Below, one piece after another: positions 25,950 to 38,861 of a stretch of 64,000 bases of DNA. A model generated the notes under the pieces. It searched no databases. It saw only the letters and a program-made list of their open reading frames with translations, and had not been told where the DNA came from. Position 1 is the stretch's first letter. Each line of letters starts with the position of its first letter. Made by a program: the position numbers and the translations under genes. The stretch comes from Acidihalobacter prosperus (GTDB taxonomy: Bacteria > Pseudomonadota > Gammaproteobacteria > DSM-5130 > Acidihalobacteraceae), in contig NZ_JQSG02000006.1 in the NCBI RefSeq assembly GCF_000754095.2, positions 604,939-668,938 on the forward strand. The letters run 5' to 3'.

Positions 25950-26528
25950 ATGGACGCGGCTGCACGGTGGGACGGTTTCACCCGGGTGTTGCATTGGGGT
26001 CTGACCTTGTGCGTGACGTTCCAGTTGTTCAGCGGTCTGTGGATATCGACGCCGGGCACGTTGCTGTATTTCCACTGGCATGAGTACATGGGCCTGGCTG
26101 CCGCGGCGGTGATTCTGATGCATTGGATTTGGAGTTTTTCGCACCGGGATCTGGGGCTGCTCTTTCCCTGGCATGCCGCCGGCCTCGCACGGGTCGGCGG
26201 CGAGATGGCCGGCATGCTGCGCGGGCGATTGCCTGCCGCCGGTCCGCAGATCGGCCTGTCCAGTTTCGTGCATGGGCTGGGATTGCTCGCGATGACGGGC
26301 ATGGCGGCAACAGGCGTCTTGTTGTTCATGCTCATTCCCGCGCGGCTTGGCGGACTGGCCGATGGCCCGCACCCGGCGGCGATCACCAGCCTGTCGCTCA
26401 TCCACCGCTATCTTGCCTATCTCGCCTGGACCTATTGGTGCGGCCATGTCGGATTCGCCGTGCTGCATCAGCTGCGCGGTGCCCGCGTTTTCGGCGGGAT
26501 CTACCTGGGGCGGGCGGAGCGCCCTTGA
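25950..26528 (+). CDS. Cytochrome b561-type membrane cytochrome
   Basis: A 192-residue diheme-type membrane protein. Four helices carry histidines in expected places: RVLHWGLTLCVTFQLFSG in helix 1, HWHEYMGLAAAAVILMHWIW in helix 2, FVHGLGLLAMTGMAATGVLLF in helix 3 and HRYLAYLAWTYWCGHVGFAVLHQL in helix 4. Such proteins pass electrons from quinol or superoxide to periplasmic partners; the partner here is unknown. ATG 25950 has AGGAGGCG just upstream. The stop is 11 bases from the stop of pelG, which comes from the other strand. Confidence 0.85.
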   Translation: MDAAARWDGFTRVLHWGLTLCVTFQLFSGLWISTPGTLLYFHWHEYMGLAAAAVILMHWIWSFSHRDLGLLFPWHAAGLARVGGEMAGMLRGRLPAAGPQIGLSSFVHGLGLLAMTGMAATGVLLFMLIPARLGGLADGPHPAAITSLSLIHRYLAYLAWTYWCGHVGFAVLHQLRGARVFGGIYLGRAERP

Positions 26529-26539
26529 GTCGGTCAGGG

Positions 26540-27913
26540 TCAGCGGAGCATGAAGGTCTCGTAGTTCAGCCGGTCCAGCGTGCGGTCGGTGACCGTCAGG
26601 GCGACGAGCGCGGTGAGCAGCATCGCGGCGGCGAAGCCATAGCCGTAGAAGTAGGGGCCGAGCATCAGGCTGACGGCAGTGAACAGGGCGTTGGAGCCGA
26701 ACATCAGCAGCGCGACCAGGGCCGCGGCCCGGGTACGGTCAAGGTAAAACAGGATGTTCAGACCTGCCATCACGAGCAGCTGCAGCATGACGCCCAGCGA
26801 ATCGAGCAGCAGCAGAGGTTCGAACAGCGGGGAGATGCCGAGCAGCCGCAGGATGTGGCCGCCGAAGACGATGAGCAGCAGCAGCGTCATGCCCTGCACC
26901 TTGAGTATTCCGAACAGACCTTCGCGGGCGGCGATGACCATTTGCGTTCGCTGATCGCGGATTGCGGACAAGGCACCACCGTTGCGGACCGCGTTGTAGT
27001 AGCGGTCGTAGGCGTGCACGAAGTCGACCTCCATGCGCAGCAGGAATACCGCCATGCCGGGGATGATGGTGAAGTAGGCAAGGAAAATCGGGGTGTCGTA
27101 GATGGCGGAGGCATGCAGGGTGCCGATCACGGTGCTGCCGGTGCCCGGCCATAGCCAGAACATGATTTTGTCTATCCACACGCCGAGGTTGAAGAACAGG
27201 CCCGCGGGGAACAGCCAGGCGTGCAGCCGGCCGGGCTGGAAGAAATCGAATTCGACGAAACGGGTGGGGGGATACTCGCGCCAGATCAGCGCGAACATGC
27301 CGACTGCCAGCAGAATCTGTCCCAGGACGAAGCCTGCGAGCAGGCCTTCCAGTCCCCAGGGCCGCAGCCACAGCCCGCTGGCCACCGCGCTGCCGTAGCC
27401 CAGTGCATACAGCGTCAGCACGGCGGTGTATTGCTTGAGTCCCGACAGCAGCACGGTCAGCACCCAGATGACGCATAGCAGCAGGCCGCCCAGGATCATC
27501 AGCAGCCGGTAGGCGGCGGAGGTGCCCGGCAGCAGCCACAGGCTGGCGGCGATGGCGAGCACGAAGGCGGGCAGCAGGGCGATGAACAGCAGGCCGATCA
27601 GGTTGGGTACGACCCGTCGCGGCTCCTGTGCGAACAGGCGATCCGCCACATAGCGGGTGAACAGCAGCTGCAGTCCGCCGGTGTAGATCAGGCTCAGGGC
27701 GATCAGCCAGGTCACGCTGACCTGGAACTGCGTGATCAGGCCGGGCGGGATGACGACCCCGAGGCTCATGAAGCCGAGAATCAGGATGGCGAGAATCGAA
27801 AGCACCCAGGGGCCGGAGCCGATGACGCCGGCATAGGCGTAGGCGCGCAACAGTCCGAGGTAGGTCTCGCTGTCCGCGAGACGGCGCAGTTCGAAGCCAA
27901 TGCCGGCCATCAA
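26540..27913 (-). CDS. pelG: PelG, Pel polysaccharide inner-membrane transporter
   Basis: A 457-residue integral membrane protein with about twelve helices, of the polysaccharide-transporter/Wzx-like fold. It moves the growing Pel polymer across the inner membrane in complex with PelD, PelE and PelF. The N-terminus MAGIGFELRRLADSETYLGLLRAYAYAGVIGSGPWVLSI is typical of PelG. Length equals the P. aeruginosa protein (456). Its start overlaps the pelF stop by four bases, indicating translational coupling. It is the last gene of the operon and ends close to the convergent cytochrome gene. Confidence 0.93.
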   Translation of the reverse strand: MMAGIGFELRRLADSETYLGLLRAYAYAGVIGSGPWVLSILAILILGFMSLGVVIPPGLITQFQVSVTWLIALSLIYTGGLQLLFTRYVADRLFAQEPRRVVPNLIGLLFIALLPAFVLAIAASLWLLPGTSAAYRLLMILGGLLLCVIWVLTVLLSGLKQYTAVLTLYALGYGSAVASGLWLRPWGLEGLLAGFVLGQILLAVGMFALIWREYPPTRFVEFDFFQPGRLHAWLFPAGLFFNLGVWIDKIMFWLWPGTGSTVIGTLHASAIYDTPIFLAYFTIIPGMAVFLLRMEVDFVHAYDRYYNAVRNGGALSAIRDQRTQMVIAAREGLFGILKVQGMTLLLLIVFGGHILRLLGISPLFEPLLLLDSLGVMLQLLVMAGLNILFYLDRTRAAALVALLMFGSNALFTAVSLMLGPYFYGYGFAAAMLLTALVALTVTDRTLDRLNYETFMLR

Positions 27914-29412
27914 TCGTCTCCCATGCGTTCGCGGAACAGCGCGTCGAAGCGTTCGATCATCTGGGTCTTGTCGTAATAGCGTTCGGCGCGCGCCACCGCC
28001 GCGCGCGCCGCCGCGGCATAGGCCGCGGGATCGTCCAGCAGTGCCTGGCAGGCCGCCGCCATGGCCTCGGGGTCGGCCAATCCGACAATGCGGCCGGCCG
28101 TGCCGAGCGGCGGGTTTTCGTCCGGTCGACCGTGGACGAGCTCGGGGCAGGCGCCCACCTCCGTCGCCACCAGCGGCAGGCCGGCTGCGAAGCCCTCGAT
28201 GGCGGCCAGCGGCAGGCCCTCGCTGATCGAACTCAGGACCAGCAGCCCAACCTGGGGCAGCACGTCCTCCAGGTAGCGAAATCCGAGGAAGCGCAGGTGA
28301 TTGCCGAGATCGAGTACGTCCGCGAGCTCACGGCATTCGGCGGTGTATTCAGGATCCTCGTCCTGTGGCCCCACGATCCAGGCCTCGATGTCGGGCCGAC
28401 GGTCGCAGAGGATGCGGGTTGCCCGGATGAAGGTCTTGATGTCCTTGATCGGCACGACCCGCCCGAGCAGACAGATGACGGGAGGAGGCGGCGCGCCCGG
28501 CGCGCGACGCAGACGGGACAGGCGTTCGACGTCGATGCCGTTGGGGACGACGCGGCAGCGCGAGGCATCGGCACCGTCCCTGACCTGCTGGGCGGATGCC
28601 GCATTGAACAGGCTGATGATCGGATCGGCGCTACGGTAGGCCTGCCGTCCCAGCACCTCGAAGAATCGGACCCACAACTCGCGCAGGTAGCTGATCTCGG
28701 TCGGATCGCGCTGCAGGATGTTGCGGCTGTCGTGGATCCATTCGGCCTTCATGAGATCGATGCGGCGTTCCTTGGTGTAGATGCCATGTTCCATGAGGAC
28801 GAAAGGGCGCTCCTGCCGTTGTGCCGCCAGGGTGCCGAGGAATCCGGCATAGCCGGTGGACGGGCTGAAGAACAGCCGTGAGGGCGGCAGGGCGGCTGCG
28901 GTCCTCGCGAGTATCCACAGCGGCGCATGCAGGTTGCGCACGCTCCAGAAATAATCGACGAAGGAGGGTTCTGCGGCCACATTCTCGTATTGTTCGGTGA
29001 TGTAGTCCCAGGCGGCTTCGCTGTAGAGGAAGGCTCGTTCGCCGAATGCGCCGTCATCGTCGAGATAGGCCTCCGGCGACAGCGCCTGGCCGTCGGTCGT
29101 GCGCAGCCGTTCGTGCAGGGCTGCCATCTGTTCGCGGGCGTGTGCGGGTAGCCGCGGCGGCTTGATCGGATTGCGGCCCTCTGCGTCCGGGTTGAACAGA
29201 AAATGGGTTTCGAGGTGTACGAGATTGGACGGCAAGGTGTAGAGAATGTCGCCGTAATCCTGTCGACGCGAGCCAAGAAACACCGCTGCGAAGCGCAGGT
29301 GGGGCAGACTGCCGATCAGCGCGTGCACCCAGCTCGATACGCCGCCCTTGATGTAAGGGTAGGTGCCCTCGAGCAGCAGTGTGACGTCGATTTCCGGCTG
29401 CGCACGGCTCAT
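27910..29412 (-). CDS. pelF: PelF, Pel polysaccharide glycosyltransferase
   Basis: A 500-residue cytosolic GT4-type transferase that polymerises UDP-linked N-acetylhexosamines into Pel. LLEGTYPYIKGGVSSWVHALIGSLP near the N-terminus is the donor-domain loop of the family. The retaining-transferase motif SEGLPLAAIEGFAAGLPLVATEVG holds the E-X7-E pair. CLLGRVVPIKDIKTFI begins the C-terminal Rossmann domain. Length is close to the P. aeruginosa protein (507). It overlaps pelE upstream and pelG downstream by four bases each. Confidence 0.95.
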   Translation of the reverse strand: MSRAQPEIDVTLLLEGTYPYIKGGVSSWVHALIGSLPHLRFAAVFLGSRRQDYGDILYTLPSNLVHLETHFLFNPDAEGRNPIKPPRLPAHAREQMAALHERLRTTDGQALSPEAYLDDDGAFGERAFLYSEAAWDYITEQYENVAAEPSFVDYFWSVRNLHAPLWILARTAAALPPSRLFFSPSTGYAGFLGTLAAQRQERPFVLMEHGIYTKERRIDLMKAEWIHDSRNILQRDPTEISYLRELWVRFFEVLGRQAYRSADPIISLFNAASAQQVRDGADASRCRVVPNGIDVERLSRLRRAPGAPPPPVICLLGRVVPIKDIKTFIRATRILCDRRPDIEAWIVGPQDEDPEYTAECRELADVLDLGNHLRFLGFRYLEDVLPQVGLLVLSSISEGLPLAAIEGFAAGLPLVATEVGACPELVHGRPDENPPLGTAGRIVGLADPEAMAAACQALLDDPAAYAAAARAAVARAERYYDKTQMIERFDALFRERMGDD

Positions 29413-30380
29413 GTCTTCGATCTCCAGCGCTCGGCGATCCGGCCTACCACCGGTAACTCGGTGAACAGGGAATTGCGTGCGAAAAGCGCCCGAATGGCGG
29501 CGTAATCGCGATTTCTCCAGGCGATTTCGGCCAGATAGGGCAGCACGCGCCCGGGTGGCGCGCCTGCTTCGAGCGCGCGCGCGTACGTCGCGGCCGTCCG
29601 TTCGGCTCGCGGCGATCGCTGCAGCAGGCGCCCTTCGATGCGCAGTAGGCGCGGCGTGTCGCCCAGGTTTTCCCGCGCGGCTTCTAGATGGCGCTGGCAG
29701 GCGGCCTGGTGATGCCTCGACATGCCTTCCCGTGCGAGTCCCATGTAAAGCAGTTCCTGGTGCAGTTCCGCGAGTTCGAGGCGCAGCGGCCCGGATGCGT
29801 GATCGGGGGTTTGCGGCAATACGCCTTCGAGGCGCCGGATCATACGGGTGATGTCCGACTCGCGCTGGTCGATCAGGGCGTGGGCGAGCAGGCGAAGATG
29901 TTCGTCGGGGTGGCGCAGGGCTTCGCGCAGCAGTTCGGTGGTGTTGGCGCTGCGCTGGTTTTCGATCGCCATCAACGCGCGCGCGCCCTGGGCGGAGCCT
30001 GGATCGAGATTGCGCAGACGGGCGATCGCCCCGCCGACGCCGAAATGACTCGGTTCACTAGGGATTTCGGGGGCGAACGCCGGCGAACTGATGTAGTTTG
30101 GCTGTTGCGGTGCGCGCGATTTTTCCAGCCGGGGCAGCACGACCAGCATCACGAGCAGCAGCAGCGGACCCAAAATCGGGATCAGGGTGCCCATGGCCGT
30201 CAAGGTGGCGTAATCGATGACGGGGTGTCCACGCAGGCGCGCGGGAATCAGGCGTCTTGCCGGCAGGGCGATCAGCAGGCTCAGCAAGGTGTTGATGAGC
30301 AGCAGGCCGAGTACCAGCGGTCCCGCCGTGGATCCGCTGGGCGTCAGCCAGTCGTGCAGCGACAGCAGTGAGGCATTCAT
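29409..30380 (-). CDS. pelE: PelE, Pel inner-membrane protein with helical repeats
   Basis: A 323-residue protein with two N-terminal hydrophobic helices (about 18-42 and 60-85), followed by a TPR-like helical cytoplasmic region (AIENQRSANTTELLREALRHPDEHLRLLAHALIDQRE). PelE bridges PelD and PelF in the synthase complex. Sequence conservation is low in this family, and the call leans on topology, length (329 in P. aeruginosa) and its place between pelD and pelF. ATG 30380 overlaps the pelD stop (ATGA). A much longer open frame extends upstream but only as the antisense-like continuation inside pelD. Confidence 0.85.
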   Translation of the reverse strand: MNASLLSLHDWLTPSGSTAGPLVLGLLLINTLLSLLIALPARRLIPARLRGHPVIDYATLTAMGTLIPILGPLLLLVMLVVLPRLEKSRAPQQPNYISSPAFAPEIPSEPSHFGVGGAIARLRNLDPGSAQGARALMAIENQRSANTTELLREALRHPDEHLRLLAHALIDQRESDITRMIRRLEGVLPQTPDHASGPLRLELAELHQELLYMGLAREGMSRHHQAACQRHLEAARENLGDTPRLLRIEGRLLQRSPRAERTAATYARALEAGAPPGRVLPYLAEIAWRNRDYAAIRALFARNSLFTELPVVGRIAERWRSKT

Positions 30381-31702
30381 GCGGTCGGATCCTGCCCCAG
30401 GACGGCTTGCAGGACCGTATCGGGATCGATGGTCTCGATGGGGTGAACCTCGGCGACCCAGCCGGCGTCGCTCAGCGAGAGTCCGAATTGATCCTGCGAC
30501 AGCGCGTCCACGCGGGCCACGAAACCGTGTGCGCCCGCCGAGCCACTCAGCGGCAGCAGGGCCAGCAGGCTGGGAGCATCCTCCGCTAGCGGGTGCTGCC
30601 AGTACTGGTCCAGCCCTCGCCGCATCGACAGGATCAGCAGCAGCAGCTCGGTATTCGGTTGCGCGGCCTTCGGACGGAAAAGTACCAGCGTCGATTGCGC
30701 ACCGACCCGGGCACGCAGGTGGCATATCTTGTACAGCTCGTGCGCGAAGGTGGCGGGACAGCGTGGATGGCGTTTCAGCAAGCCGCCGGCATCCCGCTGG
30801 GCGGCTGCCTCGTCGGCGAAATATTCGAGGATGGCGGTTGCCGTCAGCAGATTTTCCTCGTCGAGGGCCAGCAAGGGCATGTCGCTGACCACCAGCAGGC
30901 CGATGCGGGAACCGTCCGCGGTGATGATCGGTATCACCAGCCGGTATTCGCCCGCCAGCCCGTCGACGATCTGGTCGACGCTGAAGTAGGCGGCTTCCTC
31001 GCGTTCGAGCGCGAGCACGACCAAGGGATCGTCGGCATTGAACGCACCGTCCTGCCCAATCCGCGCAAGCGGAGGGGCGCTCAGTTGCCCGCCCTCGAAG
31101 GCGTAGAGCGAGGCGGACTCGATGCGGCAGTAGTGCGCCAGCAGTTGGAGCAGGGCTTGGCCGGCTTCGGGCGTGAGGTGCGAGCCGTTGTGTTGCAGTT
31201 CCGTGCGCACGGCTTCGAGTGCCCCGCGCAGGCTGACCGGCCGGGTGATCAGGGTTTCCTCCAGCCGATCGTGCGAGATGCGCGTGACGTAGAAGGCGCG
31301 GGTCAGTGATTCCAGGCGGTTCTCGCTGTAATAGAGGCGCGCCTCGGCCTGGCCCAGACGGCCGTGCCAGAGTGTGGCGTACTGACCGCCGATCAGGCTG
31401 ACGAGCATGCCGCCGACGATCTGGGGCAAGGCCATGGCCTGATTGCCGAGGCCGAGTTCCGGCAGCCACAGGCCGCCGACGGCCAGGATGCCGCTGGCGG
31501 CCAGCGCCGGACCGATGCCGTAACGCAGGCCGATGAGCAACGGCGCCAGCCACAGCCAGGGAAAGCCGCCGATATCGAAGGGTGCGTTCGGGCTCAGGAG
31601 GTGGCCCAGCCACAGTGCCGCGAGCGGCAGCAGCAGAATTTCCGCGATGGGTCCCGGGCCGAGCCGGCCCAGGCGCGCGGTGTGGCGGCGGCGCAGATTC
31701 AT
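30377..31702 (-). CDS. pelD: PelD, c-di-GMP receptor of the Pel synthase
   Basis: A 441-residue inner-membrane protein. Four N-terminal helices (about 18-110) precede a GAF domain (about 165-310) and a degenerate GGDEF domain lacking the catalytic loop. The RxxD site that binds c-di-GMP is seen as RGLD at 362-365 (LLLLILSMRRGLDQYW), so ligand activation of polymer synthesis should be retained. In P. aeruginosa, PelD is needed for Pel production through this site. ATG 31702 overlaps the pelC stop by four bases. Length is near the usual 455. Confidence 0.94.
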   Translation of the reverse strand: MNLRRRHTARLGRLGPGPIAEILLLPLAALWLGHLLSPNAPFDIGGFPWLWLAPLLIGLRYGIGPALAASGILAVGGLWLPELGLGNQAMALPQIVGGMLVSLIGGQYATLWHGRLGQAEARLYYSENRLESLTRAFYVTRISHDRLEETLITRPVSLRGALEAVRTELQHNGSHLTPEAGQALLQLLAHYCRIESASLYAFEGGQLSAPPLARIGQDGAFNADDPLVVLALEREEAAYFSVDQIVDGLAGEYRLVIPIITADGSRIGLLVVSDMPLLALDEENLLTATAILEYFADEAAAQRDAGGLLKRHPRCPATFAHELYKICHLRARVGAQSTLVLFRPKAAQPNTELLLLILSMRRGLDQYWQHPLAEDAPSLLALLPLSGSAGAHGFVARVDALSQDQFGLSLSDAGWVAEVHPIETIDPDTVLQAVLGQDPTA

Positions 31703-32232
31703 CGCGGCCGCAGACGATCGATGAGCCGGTTGAGGGTCTTCTGCGCAAGCACGGCGATGCCCTCGCGGCTGCCGCCCGTGGCAGCAGCCGTGCCGCTCCA
31801 CAGCGTATGGCCGTTTTCCAGATCCACCAGCCGCAGCGTGAAGCCTACCGCCGGCTGACCGTCCAGCCCGACCTTGTAGCGCCACTCGTCCACGCTGCCG
31901 AGCAGCGCGTAGCGCAGATGTTGAGTGCGGGCCCAGGCCAGCGCGGCCGCCTGTTCTGCCTCGCCATTGTGCAGCGGGAGCGCGGCATTGTCGGATGCCG
32001 GCGGCGGCAGCCGCACCTGGTGCACGCCATGGCTGACCAGCAGCGCCGCGAGCATCTGTTGCGCGCGTGCGCCGGCGTACGGCGTAGCCGTATTGTTCAC
32101 CAGCGCGGGCACGGCCCAGCCGGTATCCGCCACGGTGGTGGGTTTGGGGCTGGTGTAAAGACTGGATGTCGCACAGCCGGAGAGCAGAATCAGGCTGAAG
32201 AGCGTCAAAAGACCGACGATTCTTGGTTTCAT
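31699..32232 (-). CDS. pelC: PelC, outer-membrane lipoprotein of Pel export
   Basis: A 177-residue lipoprotein. The signal peptide MKPRIVGLLTLFSLILLSGC ends in a lipobox with Cys20. The mature part (VPALVNNTATPYAGARAQQMLAALLVSHGVHQVRLP) has the PelC/LpoB-like alpha/beta look. In P. aeruginosa, PelC forms a twelve-membered ring under the PelB pore and guides the cationic polymer. Length is close to the usual 172. It starts 15 bases after the pelB stop and overlaps pelD. Confidence 0.92.
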   Translation of the reverse strand: MKPRIVGLLTLFSLILLSGCATSSLYTSPKPTTVADTGWAVPALVNNTATPYAGARAQQMLAALLVSHGVHQVRLPPPASDNAALPLHNGEAEQAAALAWARTQHLRYALLGSVDEWRYKVGLDGQPAVGFTLRLVDLENGHTLWSGTAAATGGSREGIAVLAQKTLNRLIDRLRPR

Positions 32233-32247
32233 GAGGGCATCCCTTGT

Positions 32248-35060
32248 TCAGTCGATTGGTTTGAAATAGTAGCGGTAGCTCAGGGTCAGCGTTTGCGTGG
32301 TGCTGCCGGTTGCGCCGAGGTTGGTGCCCAGCTGGAGGCTGAGCGCAAGATGGTCGGGGCCGGCCACGGGCAGGGCGACGCCGGCAGTGGCCAGATAACC
32401 GGGCCCGTAATCGCTGTTGGCACACACGTTGGCGCTGGCGAAAGGCCGCAGGAGCGGTGTGTAGTCCTGTTGGTAACGGTCGTTGAAGCCGCCACCGACG
32501 CAGGCCTGCGCGTAGTCGCGTGGAATGAAGAAGCCGACGTCCGGTGTTTCGCCTGCGGGGACCAGCGCCGCGAGCTGGGCGGGCAGCCGTGCGGCGCGAC
32601 GGAAGCGCGCGCCGCTGAGGCTGGCGCTGATGCGCAGGCTGGGGGGCGAGAGCCAGAGTCGGTGCTCGACGTCGAGGCTCAAGGCGGTGATGCCGCCCAG
32701 GTAGCCGCCGCCCTGTGCCCGGTATTCGCCGGTGTGGAAGCTGCCGTACAGGGCGTTGCGGGGGGTCGGTTCGAAGCTGGCGGTCAGCTCCAGCCGATCC
32801 TCCCTGGCGCCGATCTGCAGCGGTACGCTGGCGCTGGGCGTGGCGCCATAGGCGAGGCTGGCAGTAGTCGACAGCCGCCGGCTCCAGCGGTATTCCCAGC
32901 CGGCGCCGGCGGTCAGATAGCCGGCGAGGTTGCGCCCGCCGCCGAGGCTGGCCGAGAAGCTGCCGCGCCGCAGGGTGCGGGTCAGCGCCAGCTGGGCTTG
33001 CCGACTTGCGGTCGGCGGCGGGCCGAGCAGGCTGTTGTCGTAGGCGGATTGCGCACCGAGATCGACGCGGCCGGCGAGCGCAAGCCCGGGCGTCAGCCAA
33101 TGGCGCGTGGCGAGATGCGTGTCGATCAGGCTCAGGCCGCTTGCGCGCATCAGTGCGAGGCCGGTGCCGATGCGGTCGCTGCCGGCCAACGCCAGCGGGC
33201 GGAATGCGGAGAGCGCGTCGTAGGCGTCCGACCGGTCGCGCAGGTCGTCGAAATAGAGCTGCGTGGCCAGCGGCGTCCAACCGAGTGTCGAGGCGGCGTT
33301 GGCGGCATCCTGCACGGGCAGGGCGTCGAGATCGTGGCTCAGCAGGGCCGCGGCGCTCGAGGCATCGTCGGCGCGGAGCGCGAGTGACAGGCGCGCCCAT
33401 GCGGGCAGGGCGTTGCTTGGGCCGTATGCCTGCTGCCGCCACAGCCGCGCGCTGTCGTCGGTATCGAGCTGCAGGGTCCATGCGAGTACCTCGGCGCGTG
33501 CCTGCGCACTGCGAGGCTGGCGCGCAAGCTTCGCGATCCACTTGCGGGCAGGGTCTCCGGGCAGCAGCTGGGTGGCCAGGGATGCGAGCAAGCGGTCCCG
33601 CTGTATGGCGCTGGCGTGAGCGGGGGTGTCGGGGCGAGCGGCGAGGTGCTCGAAGACATGGCGCCGCAGCCGTCGTGCGATTAGCGGATGGCCGGCCTGT
33701 TGCGCCGTGTCCGCGTAGGCCGCGAGCCAGGCCGGATCCCCGGCATGGCGCGACCACTGCCGGTCGAGCAGCGGCAGGGCGTGTTGCGGCTGGCCGATAA
33801 GGGCGTAGCCGGCGGCCATCGGCGACCACAAGGTGGGGTGGTCGCCGGCGCTCGAGGACAGTTTCGGCAGCAGTGCGGAAAGCGTCTGCCTGTCGTGATG
33901 GTCGACGAGCATCCACAGGTCGTCGGCCCATAGCTGGTCGTCGTCGGGACTGATCGCCAGCGCGCGAGCGTAGGCGGCCTGCGCCGCATTCAGCTGGTTG
34001 CGGCTGGCATGCAGCGCCGCGAGTCCTGTCCAGTAGCCGGGGAGCCGTTGCAGTCGATCGATTTCGTTGGCGGGGAGTCCGTCATAGGCTTGCGTCAGCC
34101 AGGCCGGTTTGCCGGCGGCGACGGCGGCGGCCACGGCATTGAGGAAAAGATCGGGCTGATGCGTGCGGCGCCAGCCGACTAGGGCGATGTCGAAGGCCTG
34201 CTTCGGTGCCTGGTGCAGCTGAGTGAGGTAAAGGCGCCGGTAATCGTCGGGCTCTGCGGTGTCGGCGTCGTAGAGCACCCGGCTGGCCTGGGCGGCCACC
34301 CGGTAGTCGCCGAGCAGCCAGGCGAGACCGCTCAGCGTGCGCCAGTAAGCGGTGTCCTGCGGCGTGGCCAGGGGGCGGGCATCCTGCAGGCTGGCGTAGG
34401 CGCCTTGATAATCGCCGCGCAGATAGAGCAGGGTCGAGATCTGCAGCATGACCTTCGGCTCGGGGCCGTAACGGCGGCTGTAGCTTTCGAGTGTGCGCAG
34501 CTCGCGCTCGGGTTCGCCCAGCTCTGGTGGTAGAGCACGGCCTGTTCCCACAGGAAGAAGCGCCGTGGGTGTTTGCGGTCTGCCGCCTGCAGCAGCTGCA
34601 GCGCCCGTGCGTAGTCGCCGAGTTTGAGCAGTTCGCCGATCAGGCCGGACCAGAGACGCTCGTCGTACGGCCGCGCACGCAGCTGGATACGCATGAGCGG
34701 GATCGCGCGTGTCGGATCGTCGAGTCCTTCGGCCAGGCCGAGCGCCTTGCCGAGATATTCGTGACGGTGGGCGTGCGTCACCAGCCAGTAGTAGGCTTCC
34801 AGCGCATCCCGCGCATGGTCGCTTTGTTCCGCTGCGGCGGCCAGCCGTTGGTGCCAGAGGATGCTATGCGGCCGTGCGGCGACGGCGGCGCGCGCCAGCC
34901 GGTAGGCGGATTCGACGTCGCCATTGCCGAGAAAGGCCTGCCAGGCGAGTTGCCAATCCGCGGCATTGTAGGCGGCGGACGGCAGGGGTTGGGCGTGCAG
35001 CGCGGGGGCGCCTAGCGCCAGCGCCAGCGCCAGCGCCAGCGCCAGCGGTGCGCGCCTCAT
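32248..35060 (-). pseudogene. pelB: PelB C-terminal part (signal peptide, TPR, outer-membrane beta-barrel), with a frameshift
   Basis: Two overlapping frames together encode about 937 residues. The first (from ATG 35060) starts with a signal peptide (hydrophobic LA repeats, then PALHAQ) and TPR repeats. It reads as far as RFFLWEQAVLYHQ and then stops making sense near 34521-34530. The second frame carries on without a gap as ELGEPERELRTLESYSRRYGPEPKV and continues through TPRs to a beta-barrel ending in TLSYRYYFKPID (aromatic end typical of outer-membrane porins). One missing base after the codon for Gln in YHQ explains the break. It may be a real mutation or a sequencing error. Joined with the separate upstream gene (327 residues) the total, about 1264, matches PelB of P. 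aeruginosa (1193), which is one protein. PelB forms the export pore for Pel. Confidence 0.85.
35015..35047. repeat. Hexanucleotide tandem repeat (GCGCCA)5 in the pelB signal peptide
   Basis: Five perfect copies of GCGCCA (35015-35044) plus a partial one. On the coding strand they give alternating Leu-Ala in the hydrophobic core of the signal peptide of the second pelB gene. Unit changes would keep frame and change core length by two residues. Confidence 0.85.
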
Positions 35061-36040
35061 GGTCGCGGCTCCGGCAGCCCGACCAGACGGCGCGCATAGC
35101 GGGCGGCCAGATGGGGGCGATCGGCCGCCAGCGCGAGGCGCGTCAGTCGCCGCCAGAGCGAGCGGTCGGGCACGATGTCGGGCAGCAGCGCGCCTGCGAG
35201 ATCGAGTGCTTCGCCCGGTTTGCCGGCGGCAAGATAGGCGTGGATGAGGCCGTCGAAGGCCTGGCGGCGCTCGACGGGAGAGTTCGCGAGCCTGAACCAG
35301 CGGCGTGCGTAGTCAGTGGCCTCCAGCGGTTCGCCCGCCTGCATGCCCAGTTGGAACAGACTGTGCCAGAGGGCGGCTTCGTCGGGTATGTGGCGGGCCT
35401 GGCGCACGGCGAAGCGCAGCGCGGCTTTCGGATCGCCGGAAGCGAGCAGGCTGTTGATGCCGAGATGCAGGGCACGCAGCTTGTCGCCGGGAGTGGTTGC
35501 ACGCACCAGCGCGGCATCGCTGAGTTCGGCGGCGGTTTCATACAGGCCGAACCCCAGGCTTATGTGCGCCTGCACCAGCAGCTCGGAAGTCGAAAGTCGG
35601 TGGGCGGTTTGCAGTACGCCTGCGCGATAGCGTGTGATCGCCTGCTGCCGGGCCGCCGTGCCCGGCTTCGCCGCCAGTAGCGCGGCGCGAAGGATATCCA
35701 GGCGCAGCAGCGCCACGCTTGCCGGCGTGTCGGTCGAGGCTTCCGGCCAGGACTCGAGCGCGCGCCGCGCCAGCGCCAGGTCGCCGACCTGAAGGGCCTT
35801 GCGTGCGAGCAATGTGTGCAGGGCTACGTCGCTGGGGCTGGCGCGGGTCATCAGCGTCAGGTAGATCAACGTCGCCGCGCTGACGTTGTGCCCGTTGGCC
35901 AGTTGGCGATTCAGGTTGGCCTTGGGGAACAGGAACACGAAGGCCGCCAGCGTGCCGATGAGCAGGCCCGCCGAGAACCACGGCGAGGCAAGGCGCTCCC
36001 TAGCGGGCTGGGCAGACGGTAGCGATATCGGCGCTGGCAT
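35057..36040 (-). CDS. pelB: PelB N-terminal part as a separate gene (membrane helix and TPR repeats)
   Basis: A 327-residue protein with one membrane helix (WFSAGLLIGTLAAFVFLFP, about 20-38), then TPR-like repeats (SDVALHTLLARKALQVGDLALARRALESW and later units). This corresponds to the N-terminal anchor and first TPRs of PelB. It ends in its own stop, and the following gene starts with an ATGA overlap and its own signal peptide. That makes this a genuine gene split rather than decay. ATG 36040 lies 41 bases inside the end of pelA; no better start was found downstream. It probably forms an inner-membrane-anchored periplasmic scaffold for PelA and the pore. Confidence 0.82.
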   Translation of the reverse strand: MPAPISLPSAQPARERLASPWFSAGLLIGTLAAFVFLFPKANLNRQLANGHNVSAATLIYLTLMTRASPSDVALHTLLARKALQVGDLALARRALESWPEASTDTPASVALLRLDILRAALLAAKPGTAARQQAITRYRAGVLQTAHRLSTSELLVQAHISLGFGLYETAAELSDAALVRATTPGDKLRALHLGINSLLASGDPKAALRFAVRQARHIPDEAALWHSLFQLGMQAGEPLEATDYARRWFRLANSPVERRQAFDGLIHAYLAAGKPGEALDLAGALLPDIVPDRSLWRRLTRLALAADRPHLAARYARRLVGLPEPRP

Positions 36041-38861
36041 GCGGTATTCGATAGTGCGTGAATTTGCCCTGGCGTTGTCCCTTGGCGGGGCGCCCGTCGA
36101 CCTCGACCTTGCAGCCTGCCGCATGCCCCAGCGTGAACTCCAGCGGCGCGACCACTGCGGCGAGTTTGAGCCTGAGCGAGCCCGTGCCGACGGCAAGCCG
36201 TTCGGTCAGCCCGTTGGCGCTGCGCAGGTAGGGCGTGGCGGGCGGATGGGCGGACAGTACCAGGCGGGCGTCGCCGCCGGGTCCCAGGTGGATGTAGCGG
36301 GCCTTGCCGTGATCGTCGAAGCCGGCGACGTTGCGGCTTGCAGCCATGTCCGGGTAGCCCATGGAAACCGGAATGCGCAGCGTCCGGTCCATGCCGTAAT
36401 TGCGGATCAGGTAGCTGTCGCCGTCGCGCGCGATCGCGGCGTGTTCGAATCCGAGTGCGATATGCGAATAGGTGGACGGGAAGACCGGCGTGGTCTTCTG
36501 CGCGAGTGCCCAGCGATAGACGATGTGCAACGATTCGAGTGCGCAGGCGCGCGCGCCGGAATAGAAGTGATAGTAAATGTCGATGGGGCCGAGCCGGCGG
36601 GGCTTGTCGGTCATCTCGAAGGTCTGGATGACCTTGCGGTAGCCGCAGTAGGGCGGTTGCCAGCCGTTGGTGTAGGTGTCTTCGTTGGCATCGGGTGCGA
36701 AGACCTGGAAATGATCGCCCTTCCAGACGCCGAGCGGCGCGACGTTGGTCAGCGAGGGGCGTGCGCGGTCGATGGTGCTGTTGAGGCCGTTGATGTTCAT
36801 TACGCCGGCGGCGTAGGCCAGCGAGAGCGCTTCGGCATCGGGGTCGGTGTCGCCCGACCATTGCATGATGCGTACGCGCTTGCCGGGCGGCGCGAGCAGG
36901 CGGTTGATGATGTCGATGGAACCGTCGACCTCCATTTTGGGGCTGAACCGGTAGCCGGGTACCGGGAGGTTGTAGCCGTATTTGAGGTTGTCGGTCCGTA
37001 CGTAGCCGCGTTCGTCGCGCGCGTCGTTGCCCTGTTTGCCAAGATGCAGGCCGGCCGAAAGCCCGGGGTCGCGCTCGAGCGCGGACCAGTCGAAGGGGTG
37101 GGAGTAGGTGTGGGAGCCGATTTCGACCCACGGCAGGCTGAATATCTCGCGCGCCACCGGACGCAGGCGGGCGACTTCGGCGGCCGGATAGAGTCCATCG
37201 TCGACGAATTCCGAGGCGATCACGGAGGCCGCGGTGGGGACGCGGTAACGCTTGAGCACCTGATCGAGAATCACCTTCGAGGCCAGCTGGTCGCGGTAGC
37301 GATAATCCCAGGAGCCGGAGGCGAAGCCGTCGCCGTCGATTTCGGCGAACAGGAGGCGCCGGCCGTTCGCGGTGGTGGTGTCGGGTGCCGGCATGGGCGG
37401 CAGGCGCAGCGCGGCCGCGAACAGGCGGAAGGGGTCGATCACCCAGCTGCTCTGCCGCATGTCGCTCGCCAGGCTGCCCTGCGGCAGGGTTTGCACGACG
37501 TAGGGCGAAAGCGCGTATCCGCCCCAGGGCGTGATGGCCACGGCGGTTTCCCGGTGCCCGTCGACCGCGATGTCGAGTAGCGGGCGCCCTTTCGCCAGGC
37601 GCAGCGGCTGAAAATCGGGCGCGTTCGGCAGGGCCGGGCTCTCGAAGCCGACAAAATCAGGGTCCGCGTGCGCGATGCTGGCCTTGAACAGCCCGTTCGG
37701 CGCGGTGCCGGCCTCCAGGCCCAGCGGCGCGAGATGGGGGACATCCATCGGGAAGCCGAATTCTCCCAGAATCAGGACCGGCACGCCGGCCGCCATCTGG
37801 CGGCGCAGCCAGGCGTAGACCTTGCCGGCATTTTTGAGTCTGTCGGCGTTGAACCAGGTGACGATGCCCGCGATCTGCCCGGTCAGCGGGCCCTGCGGCA
37901 GCGGGTCCAGGGTCACGTCGAGCGAATATGTGGCATAGCCCATGTGATTGAGCGGCATGGCCGCATACCAATTGGCGTTGTTGTGCATCATGTCCTCGTG
38001 CCCGGCGTACAGCAGCAGCACCCGGCGTGGCAGCACGCGGATGGCGCCGGTGCCGACGATGTCGAGTGTTGCGTTGGTGACGTAGGGCACGATGCCGTCG
38101 GCCGCGATGCGGCGGGCGTCGCTTTCGGCCTGCTGGTGCTGGTCGGGCGGCAGGTAGTCGATGGCGATGGGGACCAGCCCCTCATGCCGTACGGCCTGGA
38201 GACGCTGCAGCAGCCAGCGGGTGTCTTCCGCCGGCACGTCGACGTACTGCCCCGTGGCCTGATCCCAGCCGCGGTAGAGCGATTCGGCGGCCACGCCGAC
38301 GACACCGTCGTCGCGCAATGCGGGCAGGAGTTCGAAGCCGCGGTTGAGGATCAGCTGGCTGTTGGGGGCCAGCTCGTGGATTGCATGGATAAGCGCGATG
38401 AGCCCCTTGCGGTAGGCGGCCTGCGCGGCGGGTTGGGTGAGCACCTGCTGGTAGCTGTCGAGCGTGTCCAGAAAAAAACCCGTGAAGCCACGCGCGATCA
38501 AGGGCTTGATAACCCGCTCCAGATAGAAGCGGCGGCACTCGGCATGGGCCTGGTCCACGATCCAGCTGTTCCACGGCGCGTCGGTGCCGAGGCGACAGGT
38601 CGTGGGGAGGGCGGTCGCCTCGGGTGAGGACTTGTCCACCTCGCCCAGCGAGAGGTAGGCGAAATAGCGCGTATGGGCAGTATCGCTTTGCCGCGGGTCG
38701 ATGTCCGCGTAGGGCTGCACCACGACCCAGTCGAATGAATGCAGGACGTCGACCGGCGGGTGCTGTCCGTAGAAAAAGGCCACGCTGGGCGGTCCAGCCG
38801 CCCAGGCGGGCAGCAGGCAAAGCAGCCATAGGCCAAGACTTGCGGCAATTCTTGCGGGCAC
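36000..38861 (-). CDS. pelA: PelA, bifunctional Pel hydrolase/deacetylase
   Basis: A 953-residue periplasmic protein with a signal peptide (MPARIAASLGLWLLCLLPAWAA). The N-terminal third is a glycoside-hydrolase barrel (VAFFYGQHPPVDVLHSFDWVVVQPYADIDP, then GFFLDTLDSYQQVL). A Rossmann-like middle region follows. The polysaccharide deacetylase domain has the metal site EIDGDGF (Asp509 and Asp511) and GSHTYSH (His584, His588), matching Asp528/His600/His604 of P. aeruginosa. A beta-rich C-terminal domain ends the protein. PelA trims and deacetylates the polymer to give it positive charge. Length matches the family (948). It is the first gene of the operon; the promoter is expected in the 340-base gap upstream. 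Confidence 0.95.
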   Translation of the reverse strand: MPARIAASLGLWLLCLLPAWAAGPPSVAFFYGQHPPVDVLHSFDWVVVQPYADIDPRQSDTAHTRYFAYLSLGEVDKSSPEATALPTTCRLGTDAPWNSWIVDQAHAECRRFYLERVIKPLIARGFTGFFLDTLDSYQQVLTQPAAQAAYRKGLIALIHAIHELAPNSQLILNRGFELLPALRDDGVVGVAAESLYRGWDQATGQYVDVPAEDTRWLLQRLQAVRHEGLVPIAIDYLPPDQHQQAESDARRIAADGIVPYVTNATLDIVGTGAIRVLPRRVLLLYAGHEDMMHNNANWYAAMPLNHMGYATYSLDVTLDPLPQGPLTGQIAGIVTWFNADRLKNAGKVYAWLRRQMAAGVPVLILGEFGFPMDVPHLAPLGLEAGTAPNGLFKASIAHADPDFVGFESPALPNAPDFQPLRLAKGRPLLDIAVDGHRETAVAITPWGGYALSPYVVQTLPQGSLASDMRQSSWVIDPFRLFAAALRLPPMPAPDTTTANGRRLLFAEIDGDGFASGSWDYRYRDQLASKVILDQVLKRYRVPTAASVIASEFVDDGLYPAAEVARLRPVAREIFSLPWVEIGSHTYSHPFDWSALERDPGLSAGLHLGKQGNDARDERGYVRTDNLKYGYNLPVPGYRFSPKMEVDGSIDIINRLLAPPGKRVRIMQWSGDTDPDAEALSLAYAAGVMNINGLNSTIDRARPSLTNVAPLGVWKGDHFQVFAPDANEDTYTNGWQPPYCGYRKVIQTFEMTDKPRRLGPIDIYYHFYSGARACALESLHIVYRWALAQKTTPVFPSTYSHIALGFEHAAIARDGDSYLIRNYGMDRTLRIPVSMGYPDMAASRNVAGFDDHGKARYIHLGPGGDARLVLSAHPPATPYLRSANGLTERLAVGTGSLRLKLAAVVAPLEFTLGHAAGCKVEVDGRPAKGQRQGKFTHYRIPHASADIATVCPAR

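Follow-up and report, generated by a model that had tools for sequence, protein, structure and literature searches.

The window, by which we mean the whole stretch of 64,000 nucleotides analysed here, comes from Acidihalobacter prosperus, whose assembly comprises 3,359,675 bases in 8 contigs, and has a G+C content of 65-67%. It carries a full pelA-G operon on the minus strand, and the segment 26540-38861, to which a sequence-only reading of this DNA had attached an observation on PelB, is this entire operon, running from 38861 down to 26540 (Table 1). The genes pelC and pelE were assigned by position and character; all matches to pelC families stayed below cut-off in the Pfam and NCBIfam profile searches, and the NCBIfam search gave no family match for pelE and no PelB match. 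After pelG, a membrane-protein-like open reading frame lies on the opposite strand (25950-26528).

Table 1. Genes and features of the pel operon in the window (positions are those of the window)
Feature	Position	Strand	Description
pelA	36000-38861	-	953 aa; Pfam Glyco_hydro_114, E 1.8e-17; 75% identity with PelA of G002
pelB-N	35057-36040	-	327 aa; membrane helix (residues 20-37) and TPR helices; overlaps pelA by 41 nt
pelB-C, first in-frame part	34524-35060	-	179 codons; signal-peptide-like start and TPRs; ATGA overlap with the pelB-N stop
Frame break in pelB-C	34522-34525	-	Net two extra bases relative to G002, G003 and G152 (nucleotide alignments)
pelB-C, remainder in another frame	32248-34521	-	TPRs, alpha-rich region and barrel; PF24604, E 1.9e-62; TPR_15, E 2.9e-55
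pelC	31699-32232	-	177 aa; lipobox-like LLSGC by eye; assigned by position
pelD	30377-31702	-	441 aa; PelD_GGDEF, E 5.7e-21
pelE	29409-30380	-	323 aa; assigned by position and a collinear frame in G002
pelF	27910-29412	-	NF038011 PelF, 645.5 bits
pelG	26540-27913	-	PF16933 PelG, E 2.3e-142

The pelB set lies between pelA and pelC, as expected for a Pel exporter, and this position, together with an N-terminal membrane helix, a TPR array, an alpha-rich region and a 16-stranded barrel, is what it shares with PelB of Pseudomonas aeruginosa (1193 aa; PDB 9H80, 5WFT). The PF24604 barrel domain is present above cut-off and preceded by a TPR scaffold (Pfam; AlphaFold2 models), Pfam matches TPRs in both PelB pieces of the window, and the frame of the barrel half matches the P. 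aeruginosa PelB of PDB 9H80 by sequence (E 5.3e-9). However, whereas P. aeruginosa PelB is one polypeptide, the protein here is interrupted at a point that corresponds to residue ~283 of that polypeptide, and the second part has acquired an export-type start. As the sequence-only reading had stated, the frame of pelB-N ends in a stop (read at 327 aa), and an ATG at 35060, in an ATGA overlap, opens the next gene with a signal-peptide-like start behind it. A single polypeptide from the inner to the outer membrane was thus not what we found: there is a stop at 35057, a new start at 35060, and a split that is conserved in relatives.

In its AlphaFold2 model (mean pLDDT 88.8), the last complete helix of PelB-N spans residues 309-320 and is followed by a 7-residue tail. 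The helix at 20-37 is hydrophobic and predicted to be an inner-membrane helix, and L37 and F38 are nearly invariant in the aligned relatives. The 50 listed Foldseek matches of the PelB-N model were all TPR or similar repeat proteins, with no PelB among them. A segment of about 30 alignment columns in PelB-N occurs in the window, G002 and G152, and is absent from the other ten aligned rows. By hydropathy and by eye, the start of pelB-C after the ATGA is basic and leucine-alanine-rich, resembles a Sec signal peptide, and leads into TPRs. Within this signal-peptide region there is a hexamer repeat of 6.5 copies (35008-35047, minus strand) that encodes alternating leucine and alanine, such that a change in copy number would alter the hydrophobic core while keeping the frame. 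PelB-C of the relative G003 was modelled with a mean pLDDT of 82.9 and low confidence in the first 35 residues; regular helices begin at residue 40, a further helical stretch follows, and 16 strands stand at the end. The best PDB match of this model is the PelB of 9H80 (TM 0.80 by target length), though a pTM of 0.43 makes the modelled packing of the long rod as a whole unreliable.

In the window itself, pelB-C as assembled is not one open reading frame, because its frame breaks near 34,52x, which the sequence-only reading had overlooked. It had let the gene from 35060 carry the remaining TPRs and the barrel, but this frame stops at 34332 after 242 aa, and the barrel lies elsewhere, in the frame 34860-32248; no intact reading frame for the barrel half was found in the window genome. 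The sum of about 1264 residues that had been taken to equal a full PelB was counted across the break (35060-32248 is 2,813 nt, which is no multiple of 3). The split and the new start are therefore borne out, but the uninterrupted second gene is not. As a consequence of the break, the full-length outer-membrane half would be missing in the strain as sequenced, unless the sequence is in error.

To place this arrangement among relatives, the PelB barrel was searched in genomes of the family (5), the class (369) and the phylum (398), as well as in the orders of G152 (2 genomes), G210 (57) and G282 (31), all these sets overlapping one another. The barrel was found above cut-off in 57 genomes, of which 45 could be classified by chains of open frames, hydrophobic starts and homology in the DNA between pelA and the barrel, the automatic chain being corrected by eye for G370, G122, G383 and G612. 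One pelB gene is present in 18 of them, two in 13 (the window, G002, G003, G152, G210, G371, G381, G378, G377, G370, G234, G803, G122) and three in 14 (G282, G383, G810, G819, G802, G811, G817, G823, G827, G825, G826, G824, G822, G806). The remaining 12 were left out of the classification, ten of them (G356, G104, G614, G380, G373, G812, G813, G814, G816, G828) on account of cuts at contig ends, pieces or incomplete DNA, G382 because its barrel lies in a 294-aa frame and no pelA was found, and G770 for its odd short PelB. In G770 (L109), a 338-aa frame that matches only the first third of PelA is followed by a PelB of 658 aa, in which TPRs are few and the barrel is complete. The family sample consists of the window genome, two relatives of the same genus and two others, and in profile searches two of these five genomes showed neither a barrel nor PelF above cut-off.

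A two-gene pelB whose second gene is open and whose junction is the same occurs in nine genomes other than the window's (G003, G152, G210, G371, G381, G378, G377, G370 and G234, with G370 counted by its junction only, being absent from the cut-site alignment), in agreement with the earlier claim that the parts of PelB are separately encoded and have export-type starts of their own. A single, uninterrupted pelB lacking the junction start, which would have spoken against that claim, occurs only in more distant lineages (the 18 of 45 mentioned above). Frame breaks inside pelB were seen in two of the 13 two-gene genomes, namely the window and G002, its nearest relative; for this reason, the two closest genomes both lack an intact two-gene pelB.

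The junctions were listed for 19 genomes, and the first junction was readable in 18, since G383 was set aside there (its upstream stop could not be fixed). An ATG or GTG start in a 4-nt overlap was found in 15 of the 18; G381 has a TTG in a 4-nt overlap (or an ATG 3 nt further), and in G371 and G378 the start lies 5-6 nt downstream. At the second junction of the three-gene sets, seven of nine overlap by 4 nt and two by 8 nt. By hydropathy and by eye, the downstream pieces open with a hydrophobic stretch of the signal-peptide type. In G282, G819 and G383, Pfam places the TPR array in the middle piece and assigns the barrel to the last. The first piece gave a marginal TPR match in G282 and no Pfam match in G819. 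A mere sequencing stop as the cause of the split is ruled out, since the homologous junction with overlapping starts recurs in other genomes, and an origin by a single nonsense mutation is unlikely, given that the downstream piece is read in a different frame and has a new hydrophobic start.

To compare the cut sites, 17 fused PelBs were aligned with the joined pieces of 17 split sets, and positions were numbered via G760, which aligns with the 9H80 chain over nearly its full length. In all 17 aligned split sets, the first cut occupies a single homologous position between TPRs, which corresponds to about residue 283 in the P. aeruginosa protein; the second, found in 8 three-piece sets, falls at about residue 734, at the border between the TPR array and the alpha-rich region. 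According to passages of PMC12022489, TPRs 1-19 of P. aeruginosa PelB comprise residues 69-726 and the alpha-rich region begins at 727, which places the second cut near a domain border. At the site of the first cut, 11 of the 17 fused PelBs have 8-10 residues between helices, and the other six have 66-114. G612, which is outside this alignment, has a long linker at cut 1 by eye.

A tree of PelA was calculated by a quick method without bootstrap and rooted at the midpoint; it has 44 rows (G825, one of the 45 classified genomes, with a pelB in three pieces, was dropped for its short PelA), and it was flagged for several long branches and for uneven composition. In this tree, the 26 split rows fall on one side of a branch with an SH-aLRT of 99, which requires one change between fused and split, and the states of one, two and three pieces require four changes. 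The six fused PelBs with 66-114 residues at cut 1 and G612 make up seven of the eight fused rows nearest the split clade (support 94), the eighth, G011, having 10 residues. This one tree of one gene suggests that the long linker would have come first and fission later. G803 (L126) and G122 (L049) stand inside the three-piece group, yet have the middle piece and the barrel in one frame; the fusion in G803 is clean and the internal start region gone, whereas G122 keeps remnants. These two look like re-fusions, or, for G122, possibly an error.

Altogether, a stepwise dismantling of PelB seems a fairly probable course of events. A long linker would have arisen between two TPRs and then given way to a stop that overlaps a start, together with a newly acquired signal peptide; later, the TPR array would also have been severed from the PelC-docking region, leading to three separately exported proteins: an inner-membrane TPR rod, a free periplasmic TPR rod as a platform for PelA, and an outer-membrane pore. 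In such an arrangement, no single membrane-bridging chain would be needed.

Several causes of the interrupted frame of pelB-C in the window were weighed. Compared with G002, where the alignment is clean, and with G003 and G152, where both alignments contain further gaps, the window has a net +2 nt at about 34522-34525, and all three relatives read through in one frame at this position. The two frames of the window overlap by about 530 nt and the net shift matches -1, as would suit a programmed -1 ribosomal frameshift by which the barrel half is reached; however, an XXXYYYZ heptamer is absent between 34860 and 34338, and since G002, G003 and G152 are in one frame at the site, a putative frameshift is not conserved. 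On these two grounds we rejected programmed frameshifting, which we regard as highly improbable. For an error of sequencing or assembly, behind which the two-gene pelB would be intact, we see an even chance. It is favored by the constraint on the gene, because dN/dS between the window and G002 is ~0.26 before the break and ~0.25 after it (pelA, 0.15; pelG, 0.05), rough values given that dS is near saturation (0.92-1.38) and that the part after the break comprises only 525 codons; with a ratio of about 0.25 on either side, pelB-C would have been constrained until recently. Nor are apparent breaks rare in this assembly of eight contigs, where we count 9 in about 175 kb with the pelB rows included (17 in G002 over a similar length). 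Outside pelB, 5 breaks in ~175 kb of the window genome and 6 in ~177 kb of G002 pass a rule of at least 60% identity on both sides, but this rule was chosen after viewing the list, with one antisense shadow removed, and undercounts weakly conserved genes, and some of the passing breaks are probably frame extensions. A rate of 5 per 175 kb amounts to ~0.08 expected breaks in a gene of the size of pelB-C, which speaks against an error. Likewise, a net two-base difference, as seen here, is a less usual outcome of errors in homopolymers.

The alternative, to which we give a little under an even chance, is that the break is a real mutation, so that this strain would have lost a working exporter, with pelB undergoing decay in the genus. 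In favor of this, G002 is short of single bases at three places (L010), all of them in pelB, at the start of pelB-N and in the barrel region of pelB-C, while the other pel genes and the flanking genes are open in this 18-kb stretch; three such shortfalls in ~3.8 kb exceed the G002 rate elsewhere (6 per ~177 kb), and pel is missing in two of the five family genomes. On the other hand, the constraint on both sides of the break in the window argues against decay, the two barrel shortfalls of G002 are at G runs, and the rule behind the break rate was set post hoc and would exclude even the breaks in pelB, whose better side reaches 59.7%. The window break alone is thus compatible with an error, and the three breaks of G002 hint at a decay of pelB.

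Whatever the nature of this break, sequence comparison shows that the split of pelB as such is real and conserved in relatives. We consider it likely that PelB has been cut into separately exported proteins, an inner-membrane PelB-N and an outer-membrane PelB-C, which would dock by non-covalent contacts. This view is grounded in the gene structure, its conservation, the clustering of the split at one branch, the cut between TPRs and the hydrophobic export-type N-termini, from which we infer signal-peptide cleavage, location, docking and function of the pieces. PelB-N retains the membrane helix at the N-terminus as well as the first TPRs, which are proposed to receive Pel, and a seat in the inner membrane with the repeats pointing into the periplasm is therefore expected. 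PelB-C would be exported by its own signal peptide and would bring the remaining TPRs, homologous to those that bind PelA, the PelC-docking region and the outer-membrane barrel. The suggestion of the sequence-only reading, that scaffold and pore could be produced and positioned independently of each other, would be consistent with this topology. The two proteins may be produced by coupled translation at the ATGA overlap and may dock end to end, directly or via PelA, thereby guiding Pel across the periplasm; where pelB is in three pieces, the middle one would yield a TPR protein free in the periplasm.

In P. aeruginosa, PelA requires TPRs 9-14 of PelB, with residues 332-436 named, and the docking site of PelC is formed by the stalk and the last repeats, as stated in passages of PMC12022489 and PMC12141448. 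Both contacts lie beyond the first cut, which predicts that PelB-C should keep them. The same fact, that the PelA- and PelC-binding regions fall in what is PelB-C here, can be turned into the argument that PelB-C and PelC form the exporter, and that PelB-N, which has a membrane helix but lacks a connection to the pore, is a partner of the inner-membrane synthase PelDEFG outside it. We find this unlikely, since the order of the fused PelB is kept: the split loci that we examined have, between pelA and the next pelB piece, an open frame encoding a membrane helix, from which we argue that PelB-N has the same role as the corresponding part of the fused protein. A docked pair of PelB-N and PelB-C remains our preferred reading.

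With respect to the literature, the phrase "pelB fission" was found by text search in PMC7112194 only (Bundalovic-Torma et al. 2020), where the legend of Fig. 5 reports it for aquatic thermophilic species with pelB as separate loci. Judging from this legend and the section text, the separate loci resemble our case and may or may not represent the same split. In Acidithiobacillus thiooxidans, passages of PMC5852609 and PMC7825692 report a pelD deletion that connects Pel with biofilm and describe an epimerase gene after pelG in the pel operons of this species and of A. caldus. In G819, a gene that by eye is sugar-nucleotide epimerase-like (L157, 5876-6835) overlaps the end of pelG and directly follows it, as in the Acidithiobacillus operon, and this gene order suggests that G819 is A. 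caldus. The pelB of G819 is in three pieces, whereas the passages on A. thiooxidans and A. caldus in these two papers do not mention a split pelB. If G819 is A. caldus, split PelB belongs to a group that is reported to make Pel.

Fission itself is therefore already in print, and what is new here is that there are two homologous cut sites at which export signals were acquired, and that pelB can consist of three genes. A TPR scaffold combined with an outer-membrane barrel for polysaccharide export is also known from AlgK/AlgE (alginate), BcsC and PgaA. Scaffold and barrel are fused in BcsC and PgaA, and in alginate export they are separate proteins, the lipoprotein AlgK and the barrel AlgE. The PelB pieces differ from AlgK in that they are homologous to PelB and, by eye, have no lipobox.

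A lineage in which nature has cut the exporter at two domain borders and provided the parts with export-type starts shows where such a machine can come apart, and the split pieces are ready-made material for structural and interaction work. PelB of P. aeruginosa and its homologues are thought to physically bridge both membranes, as put in a passage of PMC12141448. The split makes the need for such a covalent bridge directly testable, and it does so in acidophiles, whose Pel biofilms are of relevance to bioleaching.
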